Positions 8,240-34,541 of a DNA stretch of 64,000 nt are shown in pieces. The stretch's first letter is position 1. Each line of letters starts with the position of its first letter. The stretch lies in the NCBI RefSeq assembly GCF_006064855.1, contig NZ_CP040753.1:2046001-2110000 (forward strand), read 5' to 3'. The notes under the pieces were generated by a model. That model was not told the origin of the DNA. It worked only from the letters and a program-made list of their open reading frames with translations, and did no database searches. This DNA is from Sulfitobacter sp. BSw21498 (GTDB lineage: Bacteria; Pseudomonadota; Alphaproteobacteria; Rhodobacterales; Rhodobacteraceae). The translations under genes and the position numbers were made by a program.

Positions 8240-8562
8240 ACCGACGCGTATAGCCAAGTAAACATAGTGGTTACAAGGCGAAAAGAACCCTTTTTGAAAT
8301 TTTCCTGTCAGGGGCGAAAAACCCTCAAAATGGCACCCAGAGGCACCGAATGGCACTGGGTCTGGGAAACATTTGGGCAATTTCCCTATCAGGAAAAGCG
8401 CCTTGGGCCTGAGATTGCGGGAACAACAGAAGCGACCCAAAGTGTTCGTCCGCTACTTGACCGACGGTCTCTTGAACTCCCGCCAAACAAGACCAAACTG
8501 CTTCATCAAAAAATTTGTCGCTCCGGTTTCCGCTGCAGACCAAACGCACCGAGGTTCTCATC
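8240..8562. other. Leader between tRNA-Ser and the recombinase operon
   Basis: The first about 25 bases resemble the chromosomal flank at 42525-42550 and would carry the promoter for the minus-strand tRNA. The rest shows no convincing gene. The open frame reading into the recombinase from 8515 is discounted because the ATG at 8563 has the better ribosome site. Confidence 0.5.
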
Positions 8563-11007: not shown

Positions 11008-12466
11008 AACCCGATCATTCACGACTACTAAATTCAAAAGAAATCGTAAAATCGGGCCAGCGCGATACCCGTTCGAGAAGCGAAGTTCTTTCGGGCCAAA
11101 ATTGGACCAAGTTGCTAAGCTTGCCCGCAGTCAAAACGTTGCAAACAAAAAATCTGCGACAAGTGGATAGTTTCTTTGACTATTGTACGCACCGGGGCCT
11201 TACTGACATCGAGGTTGATCATTTTTTGATTTTGACAAGTCGAGCAGTCCAACCAGTCTGCGTCGTCTTAGAGACACTTTACGGTCCATATATGGCCTGC
11301 ATCATCCTATTTCTCATGTAGTAGACCGCGCTCGCCAAATAAGATGCCGCGCTCACCGTTTTAAGCAAGGGCGAACAGGTCAGAGGAAACAGACATCACA
11401 AAGGTTGCGTTGCTCAGTTCCCGTTTGTGAGTTGCCAGGGACTTGGCGAACTATGTTGGATGAACTGGAGGCAGGCCAGCGCGTAAGGGGACGCAGAAGT
11501 TCCGGAGCTACTGTGCGGAATATGCGAAGCTATGCCCGCCAGCTAATATGGTCTGCCCGGAAGGCGGGTTTATCTGATGAAATTAGTATGCAAACACTAT
11601 TAGCTTACGATCAGGATCTATCTCAGCGCGGGCTTAGAGCGACCAGTTGCGCAATGCAGTTTGGTTTCCTTGGCGCGTTGACAAAATTTGTTCAGCCAGA
11701 CGCTTATCTTGAAGATGCCATCAAAGAACTTGTCGCAGACTATACAATTGCTGCGAATGGCTCAGTCAGGCTGAAAGAGGGCCGATATGCAAATCTGGCC
11801 TCCATCGATGTTCTCTTTGATCAGGCTTACGTCCTCTTAGACGAAGGTCTCACTGAGAAACACAAAACTAAAAGAATCTCATTGCTCGTCGACGCCGCCG
11901 CAATCGCCTTCCTCACACTTGTTCCACTGCGCAACGCTGATACGGTGCTGCGTTGGGGAGAACACATATCAGTTGACGCCTCTGGTACAGATGACTGGGT
12001 TTACAGGATTGGCACATCGATTTCGAAAACATTCGCTGATTTCGGTGGAAAATTGCATCCTATACTTAACCCCTTCTTAGAAACTCTGCTATTGCAGGGG
12101 CAGCACCCCGCCTTCCTGCAGCGGCGATTGGCGGAAGCAATTTCCGACCGAGAGCCGGTCTTTCCTTTAAGTAACGGTGACGCGCGCAGCAATAATAACC
12201 TCTCGCGACGCTGGCGGGTTCGCCTTGGCACTGGCAGCCACATTGCACGAACACAGGCCCATACCCTTCTCGGCGCATTAGGTCCAAAAGGCGTTAACTT
12301 CGCACTGGCTTTGTGCGCGCAGCGCTCATACGGGACAAGGGTCCACTACCAAGACAGATCTCTCGACCGCGAGCTTATGTTGGAGAGTCAAAGGAAGCTC
12401 TCCGCGACCTTACCCAGTGATCTTGTTGCGCGGCGATTGGAAGGCCTTGAACCACAGAAAGTTTAG
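11004..12466 (+). pseudogene. Second tyrosine recombinase of the pair, interrupted by a frameshift in a T6 run
   Basis: The first frame starts at 11004 (ATGA overlap) and, after EVDHF, runs to a stop at 11321. A second frame is open from 11219 and continues without stop to 12466. One extra T in the run 11222-11227 would join them into one protein of about 487 residues (...VDHF FDFDKSSSPTSLRRL...). The C-terminal half carries RNADTVLRW, GSHIARTQAHTLLG (HxxR with a second His) and LCAQRSYGTRVHYQ with the presumed Tyr, a pattern I recall from paired recombinase-like proteins on alphaproteobacterial islands. The ATG at 11453 or the GTG-rich region near 11405 could start a shorter protein. A sequencing error or a programmed slip in T6 cannot be excluded. 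Confidence 0.7.
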
Positions 12467-12483
12467 ACTCACATGCGCTCTAA

Positions 12484-12830
12484 ATGCGCATCTCAGGGAC
12501 TGAAAAGAAACCAGCTGAATCCGCAGACGTTAGCGACAGCTATCACAAAGGGCGGAAAGTGTGCATTCGCTGCAAGTGCGAGGTTGCCGTGCGTCGATGG
12601 GGACAGCTGACATTCAATCAGCCACGGAACTGGTGTTTGTGCTGCGGTGCGGAAGGCGGCTTCGAGCCCTTCAAACGAACAAGCAGCTCGACCATTTCGC
12701 AGCCGCAGCAAAATCAGCCGAGAGAGACCGGCCCTTTGCGGACCTTGGCCATGACTTCAAGATGCTGCAGTGCGGCCCGTCATTGCGGCCATTTATTCAT
12801 CGTGCAGCATTCTATTAAGTTAAGCGTCGG
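12484..12830 (-). repeat. Dispersed degenerate repeat, copy C
   Basis: The minus strand carries, in order, GCCGCCTTCCGCACCGCAG, TTGAATGTCAGCTG, TTGCAGCGAATGCACACTTT and CCGCCCTTTGTG. The same order of motifs is found on the plus strand at 17921-18176 and 36279-36430. By eye it is the most diverged of the three. No gene is seen here. Confidence 0.55.
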
Positions 12831-12834
12831 TCAG

Positions 12835-13149
12835 AGGTGTGGTTTCAACGGAGCGCCGCAACACACGCTTCAAATTTCTCTGCGGGGGTTTGATATTGCG
12901 AGGTCTTTCGAGGTCTCTCGTTGAGCAGGCGGGCCACGGCGCTCAGCTCGGCCTGACTAAAGCCCGATATATCAACGCCTTTCGGGAAGTATTGGCGAAG
13001 AAGTCGATTGGTGTTTTCATTACTCCCTCTTTGCCAAGGTGACTGAGGATCACAAAAATAGGCGTCGATCTTTGTCGCCATGGTGAACTTTCGATGGCCG
13101 GCCATCTTTGACTTACGATCCCATGTCAGCGATCGATACAGCTCTTTTG
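12835..13149 (-). pseudogene. IS30-family transposase, C-terminal remnant
   Basis: The frame ending at 12845 reads LYRSLTWDRKSKMAGHRKF, then YFCDPQSPWQRGSNENTN, LLRQYFPKGVDIS and LNERPRKTSQYQTPAEKFEA, the conserved C-terminal part of IS30 transposases, including the catalytic DPxSPWQRGxNE region. A stop lies in frame just upstream near 13150 and the N-terminal two thirds are absent. The end near 12835 (AGGTGTGGTTTCAACGG) may be the old terminal repeat; that boundary is a guess. Confidence 0.8.
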
Positions 13150-17054: not shown

Positions 17055-17462
17055 TCACTTCGGCCGCTCGATGGCACCGATGATTGAACAGGCACCAAGG
17101 TCGCCATTTCCGGGGCAGCCGTCGATCAATTCGTCCAGCAGCGTCGCTATCTTTTGCAATCCCTCCAGACGTTCCCAAACCTCGCGTCGTTTTTGAACCG
17201 CCAGCTTACGAACGTCGTGGCAATTGGCGTCAGCACGGGCCCTTAAAGAAAGCAAATCTGCGATCTCGCTAAGAGAAAAACCGATGCCTTGTGCGTCCTT
17301 GATGAACCGCAACCGGCTTACAGATGCAGCATCATAGAGACGCGGGCGGCCATCCACAGGTTTAATCGGCTGTGTCAGTAAGCCGCGGCGTTCATAGTAT
17401 CGGATCGTTTCAACATTCACTTGCGCCGCTCGTGCCGCCTGTCCGATTTTGAGATTTGCCAT
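17055..17462 (-). CDS. merR: MerR-family regulator, mercury type
   Basis: 135 residues. The N-terminal winged helix (NLKIGQAARAAQVNVETIRY followed by YERRGLL) is typical MerR. The metal-binding cysteines of mercury MerR are all present in context: ANCHDVRKLA (equivalent to Cys82) and GCPGNGDLGACSII, where Cys-x8-Cys matches the Cys117/Cys126 loop. Such proteins twist a promoter with a 19-base spacer when Hg(II) binds. The matching promoter lies directly downstream and drives the operon 16836-13218. A minus-strand TTATAAT lies upstream of the start with AAAGG near the ATG. Sensing of another thiophilic metal is possible. Confidence 0.88.
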   Translation of the reverse strand: MANLKIGQAARAAQVNVETIRYYERRGLLTQPIKPVDGRPRLYDAASVSRLRFIKDAQGIGFSLSEIADLLSLRARADANCHDVRKLAVQKRREVWERLEGLQKIATLLDELIDGCPGNGDLGACSIIGAIERPK

Positions 17463-21572: not shown

Positions 21573-22079
21573 ATGATGACTTCACAGCGCCAAGCGACTG
21601 CAAATTTGGTTCACAATGGAGAATATTCCGATCTACGGTTCGTCAATATGATGTCCGCCCATCATGCGATGGCGGTATCAATGGCCGAGGTTGCGGTGGA
21701 AAAAGGCGAGCACAACGAACTCGTCCAGTTCGCAAAGACCATGATCGAAGATCAGAAGAAAGAAATCGAAACGCTTGATGGCATAATCGAAGACCTTGAT
21801 GGCCCTGATGAAGTCGCGACGGAAACCCATCCCCATGAGCGCAGCATGCTCGGGATGGACAGCCCAGAAGAACTCGCAAAAAAGGCACCCTTCGACAAAG
21901 CATTCATCGATTCACAACTGCCGCACCATGCCTCTGCAATTGAAATGGCAGCGGTCGCTCTGAAACAGAGTTCCAACAGCGACATCAAGAAGCTTTCGAG
22001 GAGCATTATCGATGCTCAGGCCCAAGAGATCGGCAAAATGATCGACTGGCGCCATAGCTGGTACGGTGAAAAAGGCTGA
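21573..22079 (+). CDS. DUF305-family protein (two His-His motifs)
   Basis: 168 residues starting at ATGATG behind AAAGGAG. Two copies of the DUF305 helix pair are present: MMSAHHAMAVSMAEVAVEKG near residue 26 and QLPHHASAIEMAAVALKQ near residue 110. The family is ferritin-like and often linked to copper or other metal stress. There is no signal peptide, so this member is probably cytoplasmic, unlike the exported DUF305 at 35071-35439. It precedes the complex-I-like operon by 163 bases. Confidence 0.85.
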   Translation: MMTSQRQATANLVHNGEYSDLRFVNMMSAHHAMAVSMAEVAVEKGEHNELVQFAKTMIEDQKKEIETLDGIIEDLDGPDEVATETHPHERSMLGMDSPEELAKKAPFDKAFIDSQLPHHASAIEMAAVALKQSSNSDIKKLSRSIIDAQAQEIGKMIDWRHSWYGEKG

Positions 22080-22242: not shown

Positions 22243-22584
22243 ATGACGACATTGATCGCCATCATTTTGATCTTTGCATTCTCAATGCTGTTCACCGCAG
22301 CATTGCGCGCAGGCGGTAAGGGTCCGAGCACCTATCCTCAGAAGCGCCCTATACTCGGGGGCAGTGATCCTGAGACCCATGCATGGCAACGTTTCCACGT
22401 CCGGTACTACACCATGACGCTGCTGTTCGTCGCCTTCGAGATGGAGATGATGTTCATGTATCCTTGGGCCGTGGTTTTTGTAGAGGAAGGCCCCAAGGCG
22501 CTGGCAGAGATGGGTATGTTCTTGGTCATTCTATCGGTCGGGATCGTTTATGGCTGGCGGGAGGGAATATTTCGGTGGGAATGA
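22243..22584 (+). CDS. Complex-I-like subunit A (NuoA family)
   Basis: 113 residues with three membrane helices. The central part HAWQRFHVRYYTMTLLFVAF then EMEMMFMYPWAVVF is the NuoA signature (usual FDVE replaced by FEME). The loop after helix 1, which in quinone-reducing complex I carries a conserved Cys, here reads RPILGGSDPETHAWQ without Cys. First gene of an eight-gene operon; its stop overlaps the next start (ATGA at 22581-22584). A NuoA is not part of Mrp antiporters, which favours a complex-I ancestry for the whole cluster. Confidence 0.88.
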   Translation: MTTLIAIILIFAFSMLFTAALRAGGKGPSTYPQKRPILGGSDPETHAWQRFHVRYYTMTLLFVAFEMEMMFMYPWAVVFVEEGPKALAEMGMFLVILSVGIVYGWREGIFRWE

Positions 22585-23603
22585 GCTGGCTTGCAAAAAT
22601 GGCAGGGCTGGCCGAAGTGCCGGTGTTTGTAGCCTTTGGCGAGGGTGCCCCTGCCGATGCTGCGAGCGTGCTGGCTAAAACCCCCGGATTGCGCGTTGTT
22701 GAGACGCCGCGAGCCGCAGCGGTTTTGTTGGTTGTAGGCACGATACCAGAGGCTCTTATTCCTCAACTACACCGCCTGCATGACCAGTTGCCGCACCCCC
22801 GCGCCAGCGCTCTCTGGCATTCACGGAATGAGTTGCCAGGCGCTACGAGAATAGAAGAAATAGCGAAAATCAGCGTTTTGCTGAGGGCAATTCACAGAGA
22901 TCTGCTGGTTGGCAGTCTCAAGACCGAGCCCGACTTTTTGCCAGATGCCCCGCCAAACGAGTGGCGCGGGATCGGGCCACATGGTCAGGGCGGTAAAGGC
23001 ATGATGGGCGGCACGCCTTTTGGAAGGCCGATGGCGATGACAGCCGCCGATCTGCGGGATGGGCTGGAGCTTGATGCCTACACAGCAGATTTCGGTCCTT
23101 TTCTCCCCATGCTCCCGCCCGGGCTCGTCCTGACCCTCACTCTCCAAGGTGACATGATACAGAACGTTGCGGTTGCGCATCCGCCGTTCGAAACCCAGGA
23201 ACAACGCGGTTGGGTTCTACTCAATCTTCTGGGACTGCCCGCACTGGCCGAACGGATGTTACGCGCCACCAACATCGGCAATGCGACCCTCAAACGGCTG
23301 ATCCGCTTATCGGGCGCGCGGGCAGCAATCCCCGAAGGGTTGGGGCGCACTCATGACGGATCGGACGTACGCACGCGCTTTGATCTGCTGACCGGCACCT
23401 CAGAACCCATTTTTACCCTGCACGTCCAGCAAACAGGCCTTGATGATCTATTGATCGGTCTGGAATGGCACGAAGCCATGCTGGTTTTGAACAGCTTTGA
23501 CAACGCATCGCTGCGCGCCATCTGCGCCAATACCTCTGTTCCTGAGCCCGATGCAATGGCGGGCGGCATGGATCACGGCGTTCATGCAGGGCACATGTCA
23601 TGA
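22581..23603 (+). CDS. Degenerate NuoB/NuoD-like fusion protein of the complex-I-like operon
   Basis: 340 residues from the ATG at 22581. Residues of about 38-75 (ETPRAAAVLLVVGTIPEALI followed by PQLHRLHDQLP) resemble the nucleotide-like fold of NuoB, but the four Cys ligands of cluster N2 are absent. Residues of about 150-200 (PFGRPMAMTAADLRDGLELD, then LPPGLVLTLTLQGDMIQN) resemble the start of NuoD. The quinone-site His and the rest of NuoD are not recognisable. The C-terminus is Met/His-rich (AMAGGMDHGVHAGHMS). The protein would occupy the position of the connecting module without an Fe-S cluster. The homology is judged from pattern only. Confidence 0.6.
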   Translation: MSWLAKMAGLAEVPVFVAFGEGAPADAASVLAKTPGLRVVETPRAAAVLLVVGTIPEALIPQLHRLHDQLPHPRASALWHSRNELPGATRIEEIAKISVLLRAIHRDLLVGSLKTEPDFLPDAPPNEWRGIGPHGQGGKGMMGGTPFGRPMAMTAADLRDGLELDAYTADFGPFLPMLPPGLVLTLTLQGDMIQNVAVAHPPFETQEQRGWVLLNLLGLPALAERMLRATNIGNATLKRLIRLSGARAAIPEGLGRTHDGSDVRTRFDLLTGTSEPIFTLHVQQTGLDDLLIGLEWHEAMLVLNSFDNASLRAICANTSVPEPDAMAGGMDHGVHAGHMS

Positions 23604-24514
23604 GCGTCGCCCTCACCCTGATGATAATGCTCGTATTCATGACCGCCGGCATGCTTATCGCTTCGGTTCTGGACACGTTTTTCTACCGATGGCTGGCCGG
23701 ACGAGCTGGGGGCAGTTTGCTAACGCCGCTCTATGCCGCTGCGGCGGAAGTGTCTCGGCAACGCATTTCGACCGAGGCGCCAGACAGAATGAACTGGTTC
23801 CTGTCCATCTCGGGTTTTCTGACGCTCGGTGCGATTGGTCTCGCTGTCGTACCGCTCGGGCCAGAGTCTGCAGTGATTGGCCTCGAAACCAGTGTAGTAC
23901 TGTGGGGGGCGTGCGAGTCCCTCGTGGTTGTGCTTGTGTTTTTGCACGGCTGGTCACCCAATTCCCCACTCGCCCTGATCGGGGCCTATCGCTACGTCGC
24001 TATTGGGCTGCCGATCATGCTGCTTAGCATGTTTGTCCTGATCGCCGCCGCACTGCCTGCAGAGTCGCTTGATCTACGCGCTATCGTGACGTCGCAAGAA
24101 GACCTATGGAACGTGATCCGCCAACCGCTTGGGCTGCCCCTCTTCATACTGTTGGGACTGTCACTTACGCTGCGCGGACCACTCGACTACGCCGACAGTG
24201 CCGACCTTGCAGGCGGCACGTCCATCGAAGATTCAGGCGCTAATCGGGCTGGTTGGCAGGTGGCAAGAATGTCCATGTTAGTTGGCTTTTCTGCCGTGGC
24301 CGCCTCGGCGTTTCTGGGCGGCTATCTCGGGCCGGTCCTTCCGGGAGTTGTCTGGCTCGCGTTCAAAACACTAACCATCATGATTGTCATTATCGCCCTG
24401 TCTCATCTGCTGGCGCGTATGCCCGTAGCACGGATGCTCGGGCTGATCTGGAAGGTCCTGCTGCCAATTGCCTTCCTGGACTTGTTGCTGGCCGGACTGG
24501 TGGCGCTGGCATGA
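23600..24514 (+). CDS. Complex-I-like subunit H (NuoH family, divergent)
   Basis: 304 residues with about eight membrane helices, starting in an ATGA overlap. The segment RGPLDYADSADLAGGT aligns with the NuoH loop R.PFDLPEAE.ELV.GY, with Glu replaced by Asp or lost; the charged quinone-channel loops are much reduced. The C-terminal helices are standard (LLARMPVARMLGLIWKVLLP). In normal complex I this subunit links quinone chemistry to the proton pumps, so the loss of acidic residues suggests another coupling mode. Confidence 0.75.
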   Translation: MSVALTLMIMLVFMTAGMLIASVLDTFFYRWLAGRAGGSLLTPLYAAAAEVSRQRISTEAPDRMNWFLSISGFLTLGAIGLAVVPLGPESAVIGLETSVVLWGACESLVVVLVFLHGWSPNSPLALIGAYRYVAIGLPIMLLSMFVLIAAALPAESLDLRAIVTSQEDLWNVIRQPLGLPLFILLGLSLTLRGPLDYADSADLAGGTSIEDSGANRAGWQVARMSMLVGFSAVAASAFLGGYLGPVLPGVVWLAFKTLTIMIVIIALSHLLARMPVARMLGLIWKVLLPIAFLDLLLAGLVALA

Positions 24515-25350
24515 CGGATATTGCTTTCTATATCCTCTCGGCGATCGCCATCTGGAGCGGTTGGCGGGTTTTTCGGGTCGACTCGATGATCCGTGCAACG
24601 TTCGCGCTGATGGTTTCGTTCATCTGTGTCGGTGCCATCGCGCTATTGATGTCTGCCGATTACATCGGCGTCGCCACGGTCTTTATGATGGCGGTCGAGA
24701 TGATGGTCATGGGTCTTTTCATGGTGATGTTCATGATGAACCCGGCAGGCCTGAACCCGATGCAGATGGTGCATCAATACCGCCTGTCGATAGGAGCGGG
24801 CATTGTAGCTTTCATCGGCCTCACAGTCGCGGTGCTGGCAACTGACCTACCGCATAATCCCCTGCCTGCGGGCCGGGATACCATGCGTGATCTGGGCATC
24901 AACCTGCTGGGCAGCTCGATGCTGATATTTGAGACCGCCGGGGTGACGCTATTGGCGACCATGCTCGGCGCTGTCATCTTATCGAGCCGCCGTGGCCGGT
25001 TTGGAGTGTCGGACGAGGGTGCTATCCCCCCAGGGCTTCATCCGGGCGGAACGCCTGCGGGGCGCAAGGTGGAGGAAGGCGGTGGCCACGGAGGGCACGG
25101 AGGGCATGGAGGCCACGGAGGGCATGGTGGTCATGACAAGATGACTGACAAGAAGGACGGCGGCCAAGGCATTGGCCATATGGGTCACGAGATGGCCGAC
25201 GACGACACGGCGTTGTCAGCAGAGCATACGGGTCACGTGGGACACACAACCGGCGCTAACCCCGAAGGCGCCGATCCAAAGAAGCCCAGACAAGAGCCTG
25301 CACCGGACCCGCATGAAGGTCACGGCGCCAGGCCGAAGAAGGAGCCTTGA
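24511..25350 (+). CDS. Complex-I-like subunit J with a His/Gly-rich C-terminal tail
   Basis: 279 residues; the first about 170 form five membrane helices with YIGVATVFMMAVEMMVMGLF at the place of NuoJ helix 3. From about residue 190 an unusual hydrophilic tail begins: tandem GGH units (GGGHGGHGGHGGHGGHGGHD), then GHMGHEM, HTGHVGHTT and HEGHGARPKKEP. Such His-rich tracts bind Ni, Cu or Zn. Usual NuoJ proteins have no such extension. The start overlaps the upstream stop (ATGA at 24511-24514) and the next start follows after two bases. Confidence 0.85.
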   Translation: MTDIAFYILSAIAIWSGWRVFRVDSMIRATFALMVSFICVGAIALLMSADYIGVATVFMMAVEMMVMGLFMVMFMMNPAGLNPMQMVHQYRLSIGAGIVAFIGLTVAVLATDLPHNPLPAGRDTMRDLGINLLGSSMLIFETAGVTLLATMLGAVILSSRRGRFGVSDEGAIPPGLHPGGTPAGRKVEEGGGHGGHGGHGGHGGHGGHDKMTDKKDGGQGIGHMGHEMADDDTALSAEHTGHVGHTTGANPEGADPKKPRQEPAPDPHEGHGARPKKEP

Positions 25351-25351
25351 T

Positions 25352-25657
25352 ATGACTTTGACGGCCATATTGATTGTCGCGTCGGCGCTCTTTGGCATCG
25401 GTTTGTTCGGTGCGTTGTCACAGAAATCTTTTGTAATGCTGATGATGGGCTTGGAGCTGATGCTAAATGGCACCCTACTCGCGGCTGTGGGGTTTTGGGC
25501 CTTTACCCTTGAAGGGGCGCCTGAGGGACAATTGCTTGCGATCCTGATCATGGCAGTGATGGCAGTCGAACTGGCAATCGGCTTTGCCTTGGTTGTTGCC
25601 GTCTATCGCAAGCGTCAAGCGGACGTGATTGAAGCGCTCGGGACGCTGAAAGAATGA
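25352..25657 (+). CDS. Complex-I-like subunit K (NuoK family)
   Basis: 101 residues with three membrane helices. The motif SFVMLMMGLELMLNGTLLA carries the Glu of NuoK helix 2 (GLELMLN), and a second Glu is present in MAVMAVELAIGFALVV. Both conserved acidic residues needed for proton transfer in complex I are therefore kept. It starts at an ATG two bases after subunit J and its stop overlaps subunit L. Confidence 0.9.
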   Translation: MTLTAILIVASALFGIGLFGALSQKSFVMLMMGLELMLNGTLLAAVGFWAFTLEGAPEGQLLAILIMAVMAVELAIGFALVVAVYRKRQADVIEALGTLKE

Positions 25658-27564
25658 CGCTTTGGCTACTCCCCCTTCTGCCGATTTTGTCAGGCGTGAT
25701 CATCGCGGTGATGGGTGATCGGTCGCGCGGCCGGCTTGGAGGGTTGGCAGTGACCGTGCTTGGCGGGACTTTCGTCTTGGCGTTAGCTGCCGTCACACAA
25801 GAATGGACCGCGTACTTGATCTGGTCGGATGCACTCCGGCTTACCGCCTCTCTCACGCCGATCTCAGCGGCGGTGGCTCTCATGGTTCCCGCCATAGCAC
25901 TTGCTGTTGTCTTTCACGCCACACAGCATGAACAAGCGCGTGGGCTGGGACGGCTAACTGGCATCATGATCCTGTTCACAGGCGGTATGGAATTGGTTGT
26001 CGTCGCCGATGATCTTTTGACGCTGCTTATCGGCTGGGAGCTAATTGGTGCCTGTTCCTGGGCGCTGATCTCGCACAAGTGGCGCGACATCGAAAATCCG
26101 CGTTCGGGCCTTTATGCTTTCGTAATGACGCGCTTCGGTGACCTTGGACTTTTTGCCGCTGCGATGGCGCTCTACTCCGCCACGGGGTCTTTCGATTATG
26201 CCGGTATCGCAACGCTCGAAGGCACGTTTCAGTGGATCGTGGCCTTTGGAATCCTTCTTTCGGCGGCCTCAAAGGCCGGACAGGTTCCCTTCTCGCCTTG
26301 GCTGTTTCGGGCGATGGCTGGCCCCAGTTCGGTCTCGGCGCTTCTCCATGCGGCGACGCTGGTGGCAGCCGGTGCCTATATCATCGCGCGTCTTGAGCCA
26401 TCCTTGTCCCTCGCTCCCGGGTTTAGCGTCGCGGCGATCTCGATCGGGTTAATCACTGCTTTGGCGGGAGGGGTCACCGGGGTTTTGCAGAACCACGCCA
26501 AACGGCTGCTTGCGGCGTCCACCTCGGCCCAACTGGGATTTATGTTCGTTGCAGTCGGTGCGGGGTATCCGGGGATCGCGGTGCTGCACTTGATTGTCCA
26601 CGCCACATTCAAAGCGCCGCTTTTCCTTTCGGCTGGCCTCGCAGGGGATGCTGCGGGGAGCTACCGCCTGGATAAAATGATGCTGGGCCAATCGATGCCA
26701 ATCGTCGGGGGGCTTACAGCGATAGCAGCCGTCGGGCTTGCCGGGATGCCACCTGCGGGCGGTGGTTGGAGCAAGGAAGAGATCATTAAAGCGGTTGAAC
26801 ATACCGGGTATTGGCTGCCAATCGCAGTGATGCTCGGCGGCGCACTGAGCGCGGCCTATACGACGCGCTTCTTATTGCTGGCATTTAGCTGGCGCGGCGA
26901 TGACGAGCGGTCAATCGAAGTGCCTGGCAGGATGGAAACCCTCGGACTGGGTATCCTCGCTGCATTAACGCTGACAACAAGCCTTCTGTGGTATCCGCCC
27001 CTGGCTGAGGCATTTGCCGCCCTATTGGACATGACGCTCCCCAAAGGCAGCCCTTTGATGCTTGGCCTTTCGCTGAGCTTTGTCGCCGCCGGTGTCTTGG
27101 GCGGCGTCTATCTGGTGCGGCGACACCCTACGCTTGGAACAAGCGGTGCCACTGCTGCCGCCTCAGATTGGCTCGGGCTGTCCAAGTTGATCACCATCGC
27201 CGTTGTGCGACCCATTGATGCGCTTGCCCGTACAGCGGCTTGGATTGACGACACTCTCATTGACGCGGGGCCTCGTGGGGTCGCTTTCATGGGCCGCAAA
27301 GGGGCGGCTTTTATCGCGGAGGTGGACAACCGTGTTGTTGATCAGGGTATCCGCAACACTGCTGCATTTGGCGACTGGCTTGCTCAGGTCAGCGACCGCT
27401 TCGGGGAGACGATCTCTGATGGCATACCCGAAGGCAGTGCGCGCTTGACCGGTATGTTAGGCCGCGACATTCGCCGCCTGCAAACCGGGCTCTCGCACCA
27501 CTATTACGCTTACATTATCGGCGGCGTCATCGCCGTGATCGCCATTCTCGCTGCAGGAGCATGA
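25654..27564 (+). CDS. Complex-I-like subunit L (NuoL family proton channel)
   Basis: 636 residues with about 16 membrane helices. Key residues of the antiporter-like fold are visible: Glu in GWELIGACSWALI, the Lys in LLSAASKAGQVPFSPWLF, and the discontinuous-helix segment AGPSSVSALLHAATLVAAGA. The C-terminal part carries a long amphipathic extension (residues of about 520-610) before a last helix, as in NuoL. It would be a proton-translocating channel. The ATG overlaps the subunit K stop. Confidence 0.92.
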   Translation: MTLWLLPLLPILSGVIIAVMGDRSRGRLGGLAVTVLGGTFVLALAAVTQEWTAYLIWSDALRLTASLTPISAAVALMVPAIALAVVFHATQHEQARGLGRLTGIMILFTGGMELVVVADDLLTLLIGWELIGACSWALISHKWRDIENPRSGLYAFVMTRFGDLGLFAAAMALYSATGSFDYAGIATLEGTFQWIVAFGILLSAASKAGQVPFSPWLFRAMAGPSSVSALLHAATLVAAGAYIIARLEPSLSLAPGFSVAAISIGLITALAGGVTGVLQNHAKRLLAASTSAQLGFMFVAVGAGYPGIAVLHLIVHATFKAPLFLSAGLAGDAAGSYRLDKMMLGQSMPIVGGLTAIAAVGLAGMPPAGGGWSKEEIIKAVEHTGYWLPIAVMLGGALSAAYTTRFLLLAFSWRGDDERSIEVPGRMETLGLGILAALTLTTSLLWYPPLAEAFAALLDMTLPKGSPLMLGLSLSFVAAGVLGGVYLVRRHPTLGTSGATAAASDWLGLSKLITIAVVRPIDALARTAAWIDDTLIDAGPRGVAFMGRKGAAFIAEVDNRVVDQGIRNTAAFGDWLAQVSDRFGETISDGIPEGSARLTGMLGRDIRRLQTGLSHHYYAYIIGGVIAVIAILAAGA

Positions 27565-27565
27565 C

Positions 27566-29053
27566 ATGCTGACACTCGCCATCCTGATCCCGATGCTGGG
27601 CGCTTTGGCGCTGACCGTTCTGCCCAGCCTCGGCCATGCCGCTGCCCGCATCATCGCGGTCGCAACCTCAACCTTATCGTTCTTGCTGCTGCTCATCGTT
27701 TGGTATCAGTTTGACACCGGCGCAGGGGCACCCGCGTTCCAGTCTTATGCCGAGGCCCCCTGGATCCCGTCGCTTGGGGTGTTCTGGCGCGTCGGCGTCG
27801 ATGGCATGTCCCTGTCCCTTTCGTTGATGAGTGGCGTCCTCTTTATCGCTTGTATCGCATGGCCGATGGAAAACCCCGAACGTCCCTGCGCCTACTATGC
27901 ATGGTTTCTGTTTCTGGAGTCGGTGTCGCTGGGCCTATTCATGGTTCTTGATCTACTGATTTTCTATGTCTTCTTTGATCTCAGCCTTGTCGGGATGTTC
28001 TTCCTAATCGGACGGTGGGGCCATGGTGACGCCCAAGGTGCGGCGCTCAAGTTCTTTATCTACACGTTGGCGGGGTCCCTCGCGATTTTGCTGGCGATTA
28101 TCGGGCTGGTGCTGACAGTTGACCCAATCACGTTTGACATGCGCGCCTTGATTGCTGCGCAGCCATTGGCAGGGATGGATTTGCGGGGTGGTTTGATCCT
28201 TTTGGGCTTCGTTCTGGGGTTTGCCGTCAAAGCCCCGCTGTTTCCGGTTCACACATGGTTGCCACCTGCGCACGTCATGGCACCGGGGCCGGTGTCGGCC
28301 ATCCTCGCTGGCGTCTTGCTGAAGATGGGGACCTATGGGCTTGTGCGGATCCCCTTTCAGATGATGCGCGAAACCTTCGCCGATTATGCATTGCCACTGG
28401 CGATCGTGGCACTCGCTTCTATCCTGTGGGGAGCCATTGTCGCCTTGGGGCAGACCGACCTAAAACGGCGCATCGCCTACACTTCGGTCAATCATATGGG
28501 CTATACCGTCTTGGGCATCGCCGCCGCAGGAGCCTTGTTGAACGGCGCAGATGGCGCGCGCGAAATGGCTTTGACCGGTGCGGTGGTCGAAATGGTGGCG
28601 CACGGGTTAATCACCGGCGCGCTCTTCTTGATTGCCGGTGGCTTCTGGGCGCGCAGTGGGACCTATGACATGGATGCTTACGGCGGGCTGGCCAAAGTGG
28701 CTCCTCGCCTGACAACCGCTGCCGTGATTGCGGCCTTTGCCAGCCTCGGGTTGCCAGGGTTGGCCGGATTTGTGGCGGAAGTGCAGATCTTTGTCGGCAC
28801 CTTTGCCGTCTTTCCGGTGATCGCTGCGATTGGTCTGCTGGGCATTCTCATTACTGCCGCGCTCTTTCTGCGGCTGCTGCAACAGGTGTTCTTTGGTGAC
28901 CTGCCAAAAGCGCGCGAGGGGTTTGCCGATGTCAGCTTACGTGAAGGCAGCATTCTTGCAGCGATCTTGGCGCTGGTCATTCTAATCGGCATCTATCCGC
29001 GCTGGTTGCTTGATCTGATCGGCAGCGCCTCCTCTGCCATAATAGGGAGCTGA
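27566..29053 (+). CDS. Complex-I-like subunit M (NuoM family proton channel)
   Basis: 495 residues with about 14 membrane helices. The segment FAVKAPLFPVHTWLPPAHVM then APGPVSAILAGVLLKMGTYG is the NuoM core with its Lys. The Glu normally found in helix 5 (FWE..L.PM) appears here as Asp in YVFFDLSLVGMFFLIG. It starts one base after subunit L and is followed by subunit N after three bases. Confidence 0.92.
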   Translation: MLTLAILIPMLGALALTVLPSLGHAAARIIAVATSTLSFLLLLIVWYQFDTGAGAPAFQSYAEAPWIPSLGVFWRVGVDGMSLSLSLMSGVLFIACIAWPMENPERPCAYYAWFLFLESVSLGLFMVLDLLIFYVFFDLSLVGMFFLIGRWGHGDAQGAALKFFIYTLAGSLAILLAIIGLVLTVDPITFDMRALIAAQPLAGMDLRGGLILLGFVLGFAVKAPLFPVHTWLPPAHVMAPGPVSAILAGVLLKMGTYGLVRIPFQMMRETFADYALPLAIVALASILWGAIVALGQTDLKRRIAYTSVNHMGYTVLGIAAAGALLNGADGAREMALTGAVVEMVAHGLITGALFLIAGGFWARSGTYDMDAYGGLAKVAPRLTTAAVIAAFASLGLPGLAGFVAEVQIFVGTFAVFPVIAAIGLLGILITAALFLRLLQQVFFGDLPKAREGFADVSLREGSILAAILALVILIGIYPRWLLDLIGSASSAIIGS

Positions 29054-29056
29054 CCG

Positions 29057-30469
29057 GTGCCAATCGGCGACGTATCCCCTGAGATCGCGATCATCGTGGC
29101 GGCAGTGTTGGCGCTGCTGTTTGCGGCCTTTGCGCCCCGACGAATGCAGGCCGGATCGGCACTCATCGCCCTTGCAGGCATTGCCGTCGCCATTGCTTTG
29201 GTTCTGGGGCAATTGGGGGAAACCCGGTTCACCTTTTCAGGAACTTGGGCGCTGGACGGAGCGAGCCTTTGGGCGCGATTGATGATCCTGCTGGGCACGG
29301 CCTTTTGTATTCTCCTGGCACCTGGCTGGTTCCGCACCGATCCACGCCATGGAGAATATTATACGATCCTCCTACTTGGTGCGCTTGGGGCTATGGCAAT
29401 GGCCGGTGCCGGAGATCTGTTACAGCTCACTATCGCGGTGCTGCTGTCTTCAGTCACCGGCTACACGCTGGCCGCGTGGCACCGCGACTGGGCGCTGTCC
29501 ATCGAAGCTGGCATGAAATATTTCCTCATGGGCGCGCTGGCAAACGCATTGCTGATTACCGGGGTCACCTTGATGCTGGGACTCTTGGGGAACACCGGAT
29601 ACGCAGATATTGCCGCTTCATTAAGGCTCGGCACTGGGCTTTCTCCGCTGCTCTTCGTCGGATTTGCGCTAACCCTAACCGGCGTCGCATTCAAACTGGG
29701 TGCAGTACCCGCGCATGCATGGTTGCCCGATGTGGCCGAAGGCGCACCGGTCCCTTCAGCCGCATTCCTGACGGTCGTGCCCAAGATCGGCGCGGCCATC
29801 GCATTGGCCCGCCTCGTACAGCTTGTGCCCCCGGAATTTCTTGGCCTGCGCCCGCTGATTGCGATTTTAGCCGCAGCGACAATGACCTTGGGCAATCTGG
29901 CCGCCTTTTGGCAAGATGATATCCGCCGGCTAATCGGCTGGTCCTCGGTGGCACAGGCAGGCTACGTGTTGATGGCCGTCACCGTTCTGGGGCTTAGTCC
30001 AGATGCGCTGAGCGCCCTGCTGGCCTTCATAGCCAGCTATGCGATAGGCAATCTCGCTGCCTTCGCAGTCGTGGCATACCTCCGCGGGCGCACGGCTATC
30101 GCCGACTACGACGGCTTGGCCAAGCGGCGCCCGATCGTGGCGACGGTTTTGGTGATCTCTTTCCTGTCACTGGTCGGGATTCCGCCAACGGTCGGTTTTC
30201 TGGGCAAACTGGCCTTATTCATCACCACGATAGACGGCGGCTATACTTGGCTCGCTGTAGTGGCTGCCGCGAACACCGTTGCTTCGTTGTTCTATTATGC
30301 GCGGGTCATGGGCCGTGTCTATTTCAACAAACCGCCAGAAGATATCGCTGTGCTTGATCGCTCAAGTGGTGTGGCAGTGTTGATCGGCGGCATTTTGGTG
30401 ATCGGCGGAGCTGTGTTGGCCGGAAGCGCGTTCACAGCCTTTCAACTCAGCCAGCTATTGCCGGGATAA
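29057..30469 (+). CDS. Complex-I-like subunit N (NuoN family proton channel)
   Basis: 470 residues starting with GTG. The Lys-bearing segment AFKLGAVPAHAWLPDVAEGA and VPSAAFLTVVPKIGAAIALA match NuoN. The Glu usually seen in helix 5 (GLELLSL) is not found in the corresponding DLLQLTIAVLLSSVTGYTL. Last membrane subunit of the operon. No genes for NuoC, E, F, G or I are present before or after it within the window. Confidence 0.9.
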   Translation: MPIGDVSPEIAIIVAAVLALLFAAFAPRRMQAGSALIALAGIAVAIALVLGQLGETRFTFSGTWALDGASLWARLMILLGTAFCILLAPGWFRTDPRHGEYYTILLLGALGAMAMAGAGDLLQLTIAVLLSSVTGYTLAAWHRDWALSIEAGMKYFLMGALANALLITGVTLMLGLLGNTGYADIAASLRLGTGLSPLLFVGFALTLTGVAFKLGAVPAHAWLPDVAEGAPVPSAAFLTVVPKIGAAIALARLVQLVPPEFLGLRPLIAILAAATMTLGNLAAFWQDDIRRLIGWSSVAQAGYVLMAVTVLGLSPDALSALLAFIASYAIGNLAAFAVVAYLRGRTAIADYDGLAKRRPIVATVLVISFLSLVGIPPTVGFLGKLALFITTIDGGYTWLAVVAAANTVASLFYYARVMGRVYFNKPPEDIAVLDRSSGVAVLIGGILVIGGAVLAGSAFTAFQLSQLLPG

Positions 30470-30514
30470 CTGCATCATGTGGCAAATTTAACAAGTTTTT
30501 ATAGGATAACCGAA

Positions 30515-31381
30515 ATGAAAGACTGCCTCATCATCGGTGGGGGGCCAGCGGGTCTTACCGCCGCACTATACCTTGCCCGCTTTCTGCGCGAGGTCGTGGT
30601 CTTCGATGCGCGCGAAGGACGGGCGCTGAAAATACCCAAGACGCACAATCTCGCTCCCTTTCCTGACGGCATTTCGGGCGAGGACTTGCTTGGTCGGATG
30701 CAATCCCATGCCGAAACTTATGGCGCAGAGATCGTCAATGATGAGGTGCTGGAGGTTTCCAAAACAGATGGCGCATTCCGTGTGACGACCGCAAATGTCA
30801 CCACCACTGCACGGACCGTTATTATGGCCTCCGGCGTGATCAACCATGGCCCGCCACTTTCAAAACAGGATCATGACCTCGGTCTGTCGCGCGGGCTTAT
30901 CCGCTATTGCCCGATATGTGACGCTTATGAAGTTCGCGGCAAAAGGATCGGTGTGTTGGGGCATGGCGAACACGGGCTGGCAGAGGCCCGCTTTATTCGC
31001 AGTTATTCCGACGATGTGACGCTCATCCCACCCGAGGGGTACGTGCCAAATGCCACCGATGATATCGGAGTTTTAGCGTCGCCGATGCGCCGCCTGTCTT
31101 TGACAGACACTCAAGTTCTGGTCGAGGTGGAGACGGGCGAGCAGCATCTGTTCGATACGCTCTATGTGGCCCTCGGCACCAGCCCGCGTTCTGATCTTCC
31201 CGTATCGATCGGCGCAAAGTGCAATGCATCTGGATGTGTCGTCGTTGATGCTAAGCAGGAAACCTCGGTTGCGGGTCTCTATGCCATCGGCGATATCGTC
31301 GAGGGGCTTGATCAGATCGCTTTTGCAATGGGACAAGGTGCGGTGGCCGCGACGGCGATCCATAACGCTTTGCGCAAGTAA
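30515..31381 (+). CDS. Thioredoxin-reductase-like FAD/NAD(P) oxidoreductase
   Basis: 288 residues from the ATG at 30515 (behind AGGATAA); the GTG at 30479 is less likely. The N-terminal FAD motif is DCLIIGGGPAGLTAALYLAR, the redox-active disulfide is YCPICDAYE (usually CATCDG in TrxB), an NAD(P) motif begins at GKRIGVLGHGEHG, and the C-terminal FAD motif is VAGLYAIGDIVEGLDQIAFA. It probably passes electrons from NAD(P)H to a disulfide or another acceptor in the cytoplasm. It lies 46 bases after subunit N on the same strand and is likely in the operon; it is the only electron-input candidate there. Confidence 0.85.
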   Translation: MKDCLIIGGGPAGLTAALYLARFLREVVVFDAREGRALKIPKTHNLAPFPDGISGEDLLGRMQSHAETYGAEIVNDEVLEVSKTDGAFRVTTANVTTTARTVIMASGVINHGPPLSKQDHDLGLSRGLIRYCPICDAYEVRGKRIGVLGHGEHGLAEARFIRSYSDDVTLIPPEGYVPNATDDIGVLASPMRRLSLTDTQVLVEVETGEQHLFDTLYVALGTSPRSDLPVSIGAKCNASGCVVVDAKQETSVAGLYAIGDIVEGLDQIAFAMGQGAVAATAIHNALRK

Positions 31382-31465
31382 AGCTGCGAGACTGAACGCA
31401 CTTTCAACATTTGACTGACTGTGTTAGCTGCTCAAGACATTTTAGATTTTTCCAAACGGGATGAC

Positions 31466-31801
31466 ATGACACAGGCGAGGAACACAATTTTGGTTTTTCT
31501 GCTGGCGCTGACAATGACATTGTCTTCGCTCATGACGCATGCTGCGGGTGCTGCACCCGCTGGTTTGACATCCGGTGAAATGGCTTCTGTTCACACGGCT
31601 TCGATGTGTGGCCTTCCCAGTGGGATGAGTGGCGATGGATGTGCCGCAATGGCAGGCCACTGCCTGATCGCTTCTTGCGATCCCTACACTCTGTCACAAC
31701 CTTCGGCGATCCGCTTTGAGGTCAGCCACCCTGCACTGCACATAAAATCCTACAGAATTTTCGCCACGATCGAGATCCCGCCACCGCGCGCGACAAGCTA
31801 A
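31466..31801 (+). CDS. Small exported Cys-containing protein upstream of copA
   Basis: 111 residues from the ATG at 31466; the frame begins earlier (31421) but the signal peptide TILVFLLALTMTLSSLMTHA favours this start. The mature part has Cys in SMCGLPSG, GDGCAAMAGHCLIASCDP and Met-rich surroundings. Short exported Cys/Met proteins are often encoded beside copA/copB, so copper binding is plausible. No family assignment. Confidence 0.6.
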   Translation: MTQARNTILVFLLALTMTLSSLMTHAAGAAPAGLTSGEMASVHTASMCGLPSGMSGDGCAAMAGHCLIASCDPYTLSQPSAIRFEVSHPALHIKSYRIFATIEIPPPRATS

Positions 31802-31965
31802 AGCCAACGCCTGTTTTTAACCAATCTTAAAGGTCGGTTATCTTTAGACGTGTAACCGCGATCTGAATGCATCCGCGGCTTTTGGCGAACTCACATATAG
31901 ACAAAGAAACTCACGTCGCGTTCTCGCGCGCCGTTCTCATTTGTAAATCATTGAAAGGAATGGAA

Positions 31966-33795
31966 ATGAATTCCATTGCCATGTTCCGCGCGGCCCTTTT
32001 GGGGTTGGCGGTAACCACTTTGGGCGGGCTAAGCGCCTCTGCTGAAACCTATGACATCAGCGTCGACAACATCCGTATCGACACCGGTGACTTCAAGAAA
32101 AAGGGCGTCGGCTATAACAACAGCCAGATCCCTACTGTTCTGCGCTTCAAAGAGGGTGAAAACGTCATCCTCAATGTCAAAAACAACCTGCGCGAGTCGA
32201 CGTCGATCCACTGGCACGGTCTGATCCTGCCGTTCCGCCAAGACGGCGTGCCCGGTATCAGCTTTAACGGCATCAAGCCGGGCACTACCTTCACCTATAA
32301 CTTTCCGATCAAACAGGCAGGCACCTATTGGTTCCACAGCCACTCCGGCTTCCAAGAACCTGACGGAGCTTACGGCGCGATTGTGATCGAACCTAAGGGC
32401 CACGATCCTATCCATGCCGATCGCGATTATGTCGTGCAATTGACCGATAAACACCCCCACAGTGGCAACAAGATTTTCCGCAATGTGAAACGCTCGGCGG
32501 ATTACTATAACCGCTCGCAACGCACGCTTGATGACCTGCTGAACGACGCTCAGGCAGACGGGCTGAAAGCGACCCTCAAAGACCGCAAGATGTGGGGCAA
32601 GATGCGGATGACCCCGACCGACGTCGAGGACATCCAAGGCTTCACCGCCCTGATCAACGGGCAGAGCACCAAACAAAACTGGACCGGCCTGTTCAAAGCA
32701 GGTGAAAAAGTCCGCCTGCGGCTCATCAACTCGTCAGCAATGACCTATTTCGATGTGCGCGTGCCCGGCCTGAAGATGACGGTCGTCCAAGCGGACGGCA
32801 ATAATGTCAAACCTGTTGTGGTCGACGAGTTGCGCATCGCGGTCGCCGAGACCTACGACGTGATCGTCGAGCCGCGCAAAAACATGCCCTACTCGGTGAT
32901 CGCTGAGTCGATGGGCCGCACGGGTCTGGTGCGCGGTACCCTGTCACCGCAGGCCGGACTTGTTGGTGGTGTTCCCCGTTTGCGCCCGCAACCGCTTCTT
33001 ACCATGGCTGATATGTCCGGCATGATGGGCGGCATGGGCATGGATATGAACGGCATGAGCATGGGCGGCATGGACATGGGCGGTATGAAAATGAACCTTA
33101 CCGATACCGGCATGAACGACATGGCCGGAATGGAGATGCCGAAAGCTGGCGCTGATCCACACGCAGGCCATGACATGGCAAACATGGATATGGGCGATAT
33201 GAAGATGCCCAAGAAGAAGGCTGATGCTCACGCGGGGCACAACATGAAGAACATGGACATGGGCGGCAAGAAAATGTCCAAGAAATCCATGGCAGGCATG
33301 AACGACATGAACGGCAAAACTGAGTTCTATGCGCAGGGCAGCGGATTGACGCCCCATGCAGCGAACGGCGGCAAGTTTCTATCCTATGACGACCTGAAAG
33401 CCAGCAACCCGCTGTTTCGTGATCGCAAGCCGACGCGCACGATCGAGCTGCGTCTGACCGGCAATATGGAGCGTTATATCTGGTCGATCAACGGCGTTAA
33501 GATGGAAGATGCCGACCCGATCGTGCTGAACTATGGCGAGCGTGTACGCTTTAAGTTCGTGAACGAGACGATGATGGCGCACCCGATGCACCTGCACGGC
33601 ATGTGGTCCTTGCTTGATACCGGCAAGGGCAAGTGGAACCCCATCAAGCATACCGTCAACATCAATCCCGGTACCACGGTCTATACCGAAACCGAAGTGG
33701 ACGCCTCGGGTCAGTGGGCCTTCCACTGCCACCTGTCCTACCACGCCGAAGCGGGCATGTTCCGCAAAGTCGTCGTTGTTGGTGGTCCGGCATGA
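31966..33795 (+). CDS. copA: Copper-resistance multicopper oxidase CopA
   Basis: 609 residues from the ATG at 31966, which is correctly spaced from AAAGGA (an in-frame ATG at 31960 is too close). The signal peptide (MFRAALLGLAVTTLGGLSAS then A) has no twin-arginine, whereas many CopA proteins use Tat. Copper-site motifs are complete: SIHWHGLILP, YWFHSHSGFQ, HPMHLHGMW and WAFHCHLSYHAEAGM (type 1, 2 and 3 sites). A Met/His-rich insert fills about residues 346-450 (repeats such as GMSMGGMDMGGMKM and DPHAGHDMANMDMGDM), as in CopA/PcoA. It oxidises or sequesters Cu(I) in the periplasm. copB follows after 29 bases. Confidence 0.95.
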   Translation: MNSIAMFRAALLGLAVTTLGGLSASAETYDISVDNIRIDTGDFKKKGVGYNNSQIPTVLRFKEGENVILNVKNNLRESTSIHWHGLILPFRQDGVPGISFNGIKPGTTFTYNFPIKQAGTYWFHSHSGFQEPDGAYGAIVIEPKGHDPIHADRDYVVQLTDKHPHSGNKIFRNVKRSADYYNRSQRTLDDLLNDAQADGLKATLKDRKMWGKMRMTPTDVEDIQGFTALINGQSTKQNWTGLFKAGEKVRLRLINSSAMTYFDVRVPGLKMTVVQADGNNVKPVVVDELRIAVAETYDVIVEPRKNMPYSVIAESMGRTGLVRGTLSPQAGLVGGVPRLRPQPLLTMADMSGMMGGMGMDMNGMSMGGMDMGGMKMNLTDTGMNDMAGMEMPKAGADPHAGHDMANMDMGDMKMPKKKADAHAGHNMKNMDMGGKKMSKKSMAGMNDMNGKTEFYAQGSGLTPHAANGGKFLSYDDLKASNPLFRDRKPTRTIELRLTGNMERYIWSINGVKMEDADPIVLNYGERVRFKFVNETMMAHPMHLHGMWSLLDTGKGKWNPIKHTVNINPGTTVYTETEVDASGQWAFHCHLSYHAEAGMFRKVVVVGGPA

Positions 33796-33824: not shown

Positions 33825-34541
33825 ATGAAAAACCTTATCACGTCCGGAGCAGTGGCTCTGGCAACCTTTACCGCAGGCGCTGCCTTAGCAGAGCCTGGTG
33901 TCCCACCGCTGATCTATGGCGTTCAAGTCGAACAGCTTGAATATCGTTTTGGCGAAAATGACGAAGAGCTCCTCGTTTGGGATTTCGACGCCATGGTCGG
34001 CAATGACGAATTGAAGCTCGTATTCAGAAGCGAAGCAGAAATGGAAACATCGTCAAACGACTTCGAGACGCTGGAAAACCAGCTGCGTTTGCAAAAGCCG
34101 ATCTCGGATTTCTTTGATGCCGCTGTCGGCGTGCATGCCAGCACCCCGACCGACGGGCCCGACCGGTATAATCTGGTGGTCGGCGTCAAAGGGCTCGCGC
34201 CGCAGTGGTTCGAGATCGACGCAGATCTTTACCTTTCCGAGCACCCGTTTGGCCGGTTTGAGGCTGAATACGAGGCTCTGCTGACCAATCGGTTGATCCT
34301 GACGCCAAGCCTCGAAGTCAACATGCCGTTCAAGGACGACATCGAAGCGGGCCAAGCGGCTGGCGGTGCAACGATCGAGATTGGCGCACGGCTAAGTTAT
34401 GACCTCGTAGGTCGCGCCATTTCGCCTTACGTCGGGGTGAATTACGAGAAATCCTTTGGCGGCACGGCCGACCTGACCGAGGCTGCGGGAGGCCAAAGTG
34501 ACAACCTTTCCCTTGTGGTTGGCACGCGTCTTTTTTTCTAA
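33825..34541 (+). CDS. copB: Copper-resistance outer-membrane protein CopB
   Basis: 238 residues from the ATG at 33825 behind AAAGG; signal peptide MKNLITSGAVALATFTAGAA then LA. The mature protein matches the CopB/PcoB beta-barrel: YGVQVEQLEYRFGENDEELL, WFEIDADLYLSEHPFGRFEA, and a C-terminal VVGTRLFF with terminal Phe. The Met/His-rich N-terminal region found in longer CopB proteins is missing. It acts with CopA in copper tolerance. A hairpin downstream probably ends the transcript. Confidence 0.93.
   Translation: MKNLITSGAVALATFTAGAALAEPGVPPLIYGVQVEQLEYRFGENDEELLVWDFDAMVGNDELKLVFRSEAEMETSSNDFETLENQLRLQKPISDFFDAAVGVHASTPTDGPDRYNLVVGVKGLAPQWFEIDADLYLSEHPFGRFEAEYEALLTNRLILTPSLEVNMPFKDDIEAGQAAGGATIEIGARLSYDLVGRAISPYVGVNYEKSFGGTADLTEAAGGQSDNLSLVVGTRLFF

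Follow-up and report, generated by a model that had tools for sequence, protein, structure and literature searches.

The window analysed here is a stretch of 64,000 nucleotides from contig NZ_CP040753.1 of Sulfitobacter sp. BSw21498. At positions 22243 to 30469 (all window coordinates count from its first letter) it carries an operon of eight genes in the order A, B/D fusion, H, J, K, L, M and N, named after the complex I (Nuo) subunits that they resemble. Matches to Pfam and NCBIfam profiles identified the A, H, J, K, L, M, N arm as homologous to complex I, and in the connecting module both a NuoB-like and a NuoD-like part were recognised within the B/D fusion, the D part at a modest Z score. 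The operon has no C, E, F, G or I gene, and the gene content described by the initial annotation was confirmed. A complete nuo operon, about which that annotation had asked, is present elsewhere in the same Sulfitobacter genome.

A genome scan using the B/D fusion found 117 relatives, of which 80 were kept. The exact order A-BD-H-J-K-L-M-N was seen in 71 of these 80 loci; six of the other nine lacked downstream genes (five lie at contig ends, and L029 looks truncated), while the remaining three had all eight genes with frames split or oddly placed. The recurrence of the eight genes as a unit, about which the initial annotation had asked, thus stood, but the TrxR-like flavoprotein gene that it had joined to them did not recur with them. 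By title, the 80 loci belong to Alpha-, Beta- and Gammaproteobacteria, apart from a single bin with the label Actinomycetota, and many carriers are marine or saline by name or source line. The operon is rare: of 385 genomes from the class to which the window was assigned, Alphaproteobacteria, just 1 had it, the window's own; the nearest J sequence is from a Sulfitobacter (98%). A maximum-likelihood tree of J plus K from 75 sequences (a sample of 29 from clade 1, 16 from clade 2 and 30 canonical) separated clade 1, which includes the window, from a sister clade 2 and from canonical proteobacterial Nuo with supports of 100, 97 and 100, the canonical sequences being set apart by a branch length of 2.9 substitutions per site. 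For the comparisons below, the clade 1 rows (79 to 81 per subunit) were unthinned, the 16 clade 2 members came from 4 genome loci and 12 plasmid loci, some of them near-identical, and the canonical set comprised 30 loci per subunit, the best-scoring of 60 genomes.

The features that complex I uses for redox chemistry were missing. No conserved cysteine column was identified in the 81 clade 1 B/D proteins (the highest reached 32/81, at an insertion). NuoE, NuoF and NuoG were absent from the operon and from the 80 homologous loci (up to 10 kb), where queries with NuoC, D, E, F, G and I produced a single match, to NuoI at 21 bits. The proposal that NADH and Fe-S input had been lost was therefore borne out: none of the 80 loci carried an NADH module, and no misplaced NuoB, NuoC or NuoI was detected among the window open reading frames (ORFs) scanned by Pfam, a scan that did not cover every ORF. 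Loss of quinone chemistry, also suggested initially, agrees with the NuoH quinone segment QxRRGPN, in which the GPN columns were gaps in at least 75/79 clade 1 and 4/4 clade 2 members. In the NuoA-like protein of the window the canonical Cys loop is gone, the Asp of FDVRFY is replaced by His52, and the acids at 66 and 68 are flanked by Met67, 69, 70 and 72, with Met70 restricted to clade 1.

Key proton-path residues were retained in L and M, the positions of the antiporter and NuoH E-channel residues being taken from the alignments. The window NuoH-like subunit has Asp196, 199 and 202 at E-channel positions and lacks two further canonical acids. Numbered on the genome's own NuoH, positions 220, 223 and 227 are Asp in 57/79, 73/79 and 71/79 clade 1 members, position 213 is Leu, Ile, Met or Val, and position 225 is a gap in clade 1; position 223 is Thr in clade 2. 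In L, the Glu of transmembrane helix 5 (TM5) and the TM7 Lys were both retained in 76/79 members; in M, the TM5 acid (Asp), both Lys and the TM12 Glu in 75/75; and in N, three Lys in 72 to 74 of 75 (TM7 Lys, 72/75).

Methionine is a Cu(I) ligand, and methionine-rich sites favour Cu(I). A joint alignment of A, J and K from clade 1 (79 to 81), clade 2 (16) and canonical proteobacterial Nuo (30) revealed a set of methionines shared by the family and absent from the canonical sequences. Eleven in J (Met26, 59, 60, 64, 67, 71, 75, 76, 84, 86 and 137) were present in 95/95 family members and 0/30 canonical sequences, and J Glu63 in 94/95 and 0/30. The same held for His52 (canonical Asp), Met67 and Met69 of A, which lie beside the conserved Glu68 (97/97 versus 0/30), and for Met29 and Met70 of K (95/95 versus 0/30), where Glu35 is retained. 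Counted independently of register, columns with ≥95% Met numbered 7, 13 and 5 in clade 1 A, J and K, compared with 1, 2 and 1 in the canonical set. Conserved methionines in L, M and N numbered 2, 5 and 2, and the NuoM of the same genome likewise has Met at four of the five M positions; the gain is thus not a general bias. A, J and K are the subunits that connect the old quinone cavity with the arm. The J tail was His-rich (≥5 His in the last 40 amino acids) in 61/79 clade 1 members; such tails were found in none of A, H, K, L, M or N and in 8/81 BD proteins. Arg residues after TM1 and TM5, judged by eye under the positive-inside rule, suggest that the J tail is cytoplasmic.

Clade 2 was recognised when the J query, run against 293 genomes from the taxonomic order to which a Halomonas locus belongs, gave matches in nine of them, five strong and four divergent. 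In the divergent copies the fusion runs from the NuoB-like part through two heavy-metal-binding (HMBD) domains with His-rich stretches to the NuoD-like part. Members were found in Marinobacter, Alcanivorax, Halomonas, roseobacters and Rubrobacter. HMBD (PF19335) matched the clade 2 B/D proteins of L166, L165 and L167 with E values of 5.6e-27, 2.3e-28 and 2.5e-28, and PF00346 matched the same three, all that were scanned, above its cut-off (3.3e-7, 1.2e-15 and 7.6e-15). Among solved structures, the HMBD stretch, which is partly His-rich, came closest to copper ATPases (PDB 8ovl, 1.9e-8; 3rfu, 1.1e-6). With the D-like part as query, 728 relatives were found, and 119 of the 120 listed carry HMBD plus NuoD-like domains, those listed including proteins named Marinobacter, Alcanivorax, Alloalcanivorax and Halomonas. 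A CxMHP motif occurred one to five times in each of the 12 plasmid clade 2 members, including two from the actinobacterium Rubrobacter. In clade 1 the B/D junction instead holds GPHGQGGKGMMGGTPYGRPMAMT, a loop in which the window has F for Y and which is located where clade 2 has its heavy-metal-binding motifs; few parts of the protein are as well conserved, and its predicted structure is of low confidence. A Foldseek search restricted to the D-like domain yielded nothing below E 0.001, and the NuoD identity of this part therefore rests on VIA ranks together with the clade 2 match.

Linkage to copper genes was assessed for 55 copies in 49 whole genomes (from 50 of the 80 loci) by counting markers within 20 kb; 57 copies had been placed, and the second piece of one gene and a 45-bit fragment were left out. 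Expected values were derived from marker density, with contig ends ignored. CopB was near 10 of the 55 copies (0.35 expected), DUF411, used as a copper marker, near 13 (0.99), multicopper oxidase near at least 22 (1.18) and Cu-ATPase near at least 13 (2.4), so that any of the four was near at least 30 copies compared with about 4.9 expected, the latter a simple sum of expectations. For CopB, 30 of 31 places were used, one below its cut-off being dropped. For multicopper oxidase, 104 of the 105 places listed at ≥60 bits were used, one lying 1.4 kb from an already counted copy being omitted, as were rows below 60 bits, many of them second domains. The multicopper oxidase and Cu-ATPase counts are lower bounds, and the ATPase places were picked by eye. 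A further 208 neighbours, drawn from a hand-thinned set of loci, were scanned for domains. Among the 109 that were one of the two nearest upstream genes, multicopper oxidase (6), MerR (5) and EF-hand (4) were commonest, followed by CopB, CusF, cation efflux, AcrB-type and DUF305 proteins (3 each) plus unrelated families.

Annotated plasmids gave seven records matching the fusion and 12 matching the clade 2 J, of which 18 of 19 were inspected; the omitted record (H6) has the same length and match values as H5. Copper or heavy-metal genes were found at 16 of the 18 loci, the neighbours including cueR, heavy-metal P-type ATPase, multicopper oxidase, CopB, CopC, CopD, plastocyanin and CusA. Taken with the genomic linkage, which supports the copper association named in the initial annotation, the operon is probably linked to copper. 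On the two Martelella plasmids inspected the operon is truncated, and the fusion gene is followed by an ISL3 transposase. Acuticoccus and Martelella plasmids also have, between cueR and the operon, a gene for a potassium or ion channel (L093 12789-13193; L094 12168-12584; L182 8168-8584), which might balance charge if a cation were exported. Shortened genes of various lengths annotated as "proton-conducting transporter membrane subunit" lie beside a DUF6629 gene near clade 2 plasmid operons and are perhaps remnants of an L/M/N-type gene. The ergothioneine genes egtB and egtD directly follow the Halomonas KO116 operon (L092 22102-24374).

One relevant paper was found in the open literature: it describes a related arrangement in Marinobacter atlanticus, where a seven-gene cassette, six of its genes nuoADHJKL-like, lies inside a copper operon and was raised together with the copper genes on an electrode at 160 mV; all seven genes were significantly up, but only one of them passed the fold-change cut-off (PMC8233155). 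Its authors suggested in 2021 that the cassette is driven by copper redox or replenishes redox cofactors under metal stress (PMC8233155).

From these sequence patterns, the operon can tentatively be read, at a little under even confidence, as a complex-I-derived membrane transporter in which quinone redox chemistry has been exchanged for Cu(I), perhaps Ag(I). This reading brings together the eight conserved subunits, the loss of the redox-cofactor ligands and of part of the NuoH quinone segment, the kept proton-path residues in L and M, the Met and Glu of A, J and K, the His-rich J tails of most clade 1 members, the HMBD of clade 2 and the copper linkage. More tentative again is the fuller proposal of a new class in the complex I superfamily, a Cu(I) exporter driven by proton motive force, with a Met-lined former quinone site and E-channel and a copper-binding B/D protein, that spread with copper-resistance plasmids among Proteobacteria and into Rubrobacter. 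Under such a scheme the B/D protein and the J tail would collect cytoplasmic Cu(I), which could then enter the former quinone cavity and cross via a Met/Glu-lined path through A, J and K. Proton inflow via L and M, possibly N, would drive export, equivalent to complex I coupling in reverse, and periplasmic multicopper oxidase and CopB, where present, would then handle the copper. Export is preferred over import because the neighbours are efflux and oxidation genes.

Several observations weigh against this proposal. The direction of transport is not fixed by sequence, and no transport, binding or copper-tolerance measurement was found in the open literature. The E-channel of complex I runs mostly within the plane of the membrane; a trans-membrane route must therefore be assumed. 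Two canonical E-channel acids have been lost from the NuoH-like subunit, and in N the TM5 Glu is Leu in 75/75 clade 1 and 4/4 clade 2 members; because this replacement runs throughout the aligned rows, N may not pump as antiporter subunits normally do. The alignment register of J TM3 also varies: in the joint alignment J Met60 lies opposite a canonical Tyr and Glu63 opposite Ala, while in a second alignment, with the register about one residue off, Tyr faces Ala61, Gly faces Glu63 and a canonical Met faces Met75, so that single canonical counterparts in J TM3 are uncertain. A test for placement of the J methionines on one helical face was not significant (R 0.32, p 0.23), and the lined pore is therefore a proposal only. 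The HMBD motif was present in 0/81 B/D proteins of clade 1, to which the window belongs. No copper marker of the four was within 20 kb of 25 of the 55 copies, among the matches listed, and downstream neighbours were mixed (99 scanned: MerR 3, E1-E2 ATPase 2, CopB 1). For plasmid copies L178 and L180 the stretch inspected held no metal gene beyond the operon itself, and L176 and L177 had only a CusA/CzcA-type RND gene and a heavy-metal P-type ATPase, respectively, neither of which need mean copper. Finally, the M. atlanticus cassette was induced by electrode potential, not by added copper (PMC8233155).

The nearest rival to Cu(I) transport is a copper-gated ion transporter, a doubtful but serious alternative. 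Here an Mrp-like proton/cation antiporter would have B/D and J tails that sense copper and gate proton flow, with copper acting as signal and not cargo, and would defend pH or membrane potential under metal stress. The HMBD and His-rich stretches could serve as such sensors, the antiporter residues of L and M are retained, and the channel gene between cueR and the operon on Acuticoccus and Martelella plasmids would suit it; however, the strictest new conservation is of Met within A and J, not only in cytosolic tails, and clade 1 lacks HMBD. An ordinary marine Na+ or K+/H+ antiporter that travels with metal resistance, its methionines structural or a shield against oxidants, is unlikely. It would fit the many marine or saline carriers and the 25 of 55 copies lacking a nearby marker among the matches listed, but not the clade 2 HMBD inside the complex's own B/D protein, the concentration of added Met in A, J, K and the B/D loop, or the retention of A, H and B/D, which Mrp antiporters are not known to have.

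Quite unlikely, too, is an ion pump driven by copper redox, with Cu(I)/Cu(II) chemistry in place of NADH and quinone. Co-expression of the M. atlanticus cassette with copper genes would fit it (PMC8233155), and so would the cupredoxins, cytochromes c and multicopper oxidases encoded near several of the operons. No acceptor site is visible, though: the 81 clade 1 B/D proteins have no conserved Fe-S cysteines, the NuoH quinone segment is partly deleted and the operon encodes no electron-transfer subunit. Methionine-rich sites also favour Cu(I). A different soft or heavy metal as cargo (Ag, Hg, Zn or Co), with the copper genes mere neighbours, is improbable; HMBD is named for heavy metals generally and arsenic and CusA/CzcA-type RND genes lie near some copies, but cueR, CopB, CopC/D, multicopper oxidase and plastocyanin-type genes occur beside the operon more often. 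Least credible is the suggestion of the initial annotation that redox or metal stress drives the complex by way of the TrxR-like flavoprotein. The flavoprotein gene begins 9 bp after N in the window, but at the 80 homologous loci the only trace was one 21-bit edge match, and no such gene was annotated in the 18 plasmid loci inspected. The conserved methionines of A, J and K and the clade 2 HMBD, neither of which the initial annotation had anticipated, point instead to metal handling by the complex itself, not drive by a neighbouring flavoprotein.

How events at the quinone site of complex I are coupled to distant proton movement is a long-standing question. If Cu(I) transport is correct, the arm has been kept while quinone chemistry was replaced by apparent metal handling, which would separate the two halves of the coupling problem, and whatever takes place in the cavity would have to match quinone reduction in its mechanical or electrostatic effect. 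Copper efflux would also gain a route that present annotation hides, because most of the operon genes, including those on the plasmids, are labelled NADH-quinone oxidoreductase. Such labels could mislead respiratory predictions made from genomes.

Features of the operon, its surroundings and related plasmid loci (window positions unless a locus is named)
Feature	Position	Strand	Evidence
NuoA-like subunit	22243..22584	+	PF00507 1.1e-23; aligned: 81 family members vs 30 canonical NuoA
A residues 52-72, conserved His/Met/Glu block HVRYY...FEMEMMFM	22396..22458	+	family alignment
NuoB-like/NuoD-like fusion, 340 aa, without conserved Cys	22581..23603	+	fold and profile comparisons
BD residues 128-154, strongly conserved loop with Met141/142/151/153	22962..23042	+	alignment; low model confidence
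NuoH-like subunit	23600..24514	+	PF00146 6e-35
NuoJ-like subunit, Met/Glu-rich TM3 and long His-rich C-terminal tail	24511..25350	+	PF00499
J residues 59-88: MMAVEMMVMGLFMVMFMMNPAGLNPMQMVH, replaces canonical TM3 (...VYVGAVAVLFLFVVMML...)	24685..24774	+	alignment
J His-rich C-terminal tail, HGG repeats	25078..25347 (start approximate)	+	sequence
NuoK-like subunit; Met29 and Met70 added, Glu35 retained	25352..25657	+	PF00420
NuoL-like antiporter subunit; retains TM5 Glu129 and TM7 Lys207	25654..27564	+	PF00361
NuoM-like antiporter subunit; TM5 acid is Asp138; Lys222, Lys253 and Glu405 retained	27566..29053	+	PF00361; above TIGR01972 cut-off
NuoN-like antiporter subunit; Leu129 in place of the TM5 Glu; retains three Lys	29057..30469	+	PF00361
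TrxR-like flavoprotein with CPIC; adjoins operon, not a conserved partner	30479..31381	+	
Multicopper oxidase, CopA type by neighbourhood	31867..33795	+	PF07732/PF07731/PF00394
Copper resistance protein B	33825..34541	+	PF05275 5.7e-61
DUF305 protein, immediately upstream of operon	21573..22079	+	
MerR-family regulator	17055..17462	-	PF13411/PF09278
Shortened transporter-subunit genes	L171 4286-5509; L179 1152-1955; L180 3276-3791	- (all)	annotation

A DUF305 gene also lies directly upstream in the plasmid copies of Martelella (L094, L182) and Rubrobacter marinus (L174). A CueR-like dyad, CCTT-N10-AAGG, ends 13 bp before the ATG of A in the window and was considered but rejected; the dyad occurs 6 times in the window versus 4 expected, and in 2/79 homologous upstream regions versus 69/3950 random stretches. 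Between the TrxR-like and multicopper oxidase genes, a 126-aa ORF (31421-31801, + strand) had no Pfam or NCBIfam match. Elsewhere in the window, positions 4310-7501 (- strand) encode a 1063-aa protein in which an Exo_endo_phos domain is joined to an autotransporter beta-domain and which might be a nuclease or phosphatase displayed on the surface. At 8515-12924 (+ strand), three ORFs of 830, 353 and 146 aa follow one another; they had no Pfam match at E 1e-4, went uncalled by a codon-based gene caller and so may not be genes. Upstream of them, at 2400-3284, is an integrase-core (rve) gene.

Compared with complex I (NuoA-N), the operon shares A, B-like, D-like, H, J, K, L, M and N components in the same relative order, an M that passes the NDH_I_M cut-off, the NuoB fold and a NuoD-like domain. 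It differs in lacking C, E, F, G, I and the N2 cysteines, in the deleted NuoH GPN, in the Met gained by A, J and K, in the TM5 Glu lost from N and in the long branch of the J plus K tree. Mrp Na+/H+ antiporters likewise have L-, M/N- and K-type subunits and no redox part, but they are not known to have the A, H, B and D homologues found here. Membrane-bound hydrogenase, MBS and formate hydrogenlyase similarly place a B/D-type module on an antiporter arm; MbhL matched the clade 2 D-like part (1.2e-7) and the MBS large subunit was among the D-like fold matches. Those, however, are redox enzymes with Fe-S or NiFe sites, unlike the clade 1 B/D proteins with no conserved Cys. Copper ATPases such as CopA (P1B ATPase) contain HMBD relatives, and CusB of CusCFBA matched weakly, below cut-off; these Cu(I) exporters likewise offer Met ligands to Cu(I), but the transport machinery of both is unrelated and the operon encodes neither an ATPase nor an RND component. 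The open-access literature yielded no account of the HMBD fusion within such a complex, of the Met pattern or of the spread across Proteobacteria and Rubrobacter. The M. atlanticus cassette, compared by description only, is alike in having complex-I-like genes within, and co-expressed with, a copper operon, and the name "Ni,Fe-hydrogenase III large subunit" given under its NuoJ gene is also that of an HMBD-NuoD fusion from Marinobacter salarius; it is unlike in that the accessible text reports no M or N and describes no HMBD or Met pattern (PMC8233155). The scaffold is thus known, being that of complex I, and a complex-I-like copy in a copper operon was previously recognised in Marinobacter (PMC8233155); what the operon adds may be an unrecognised copper transporter.

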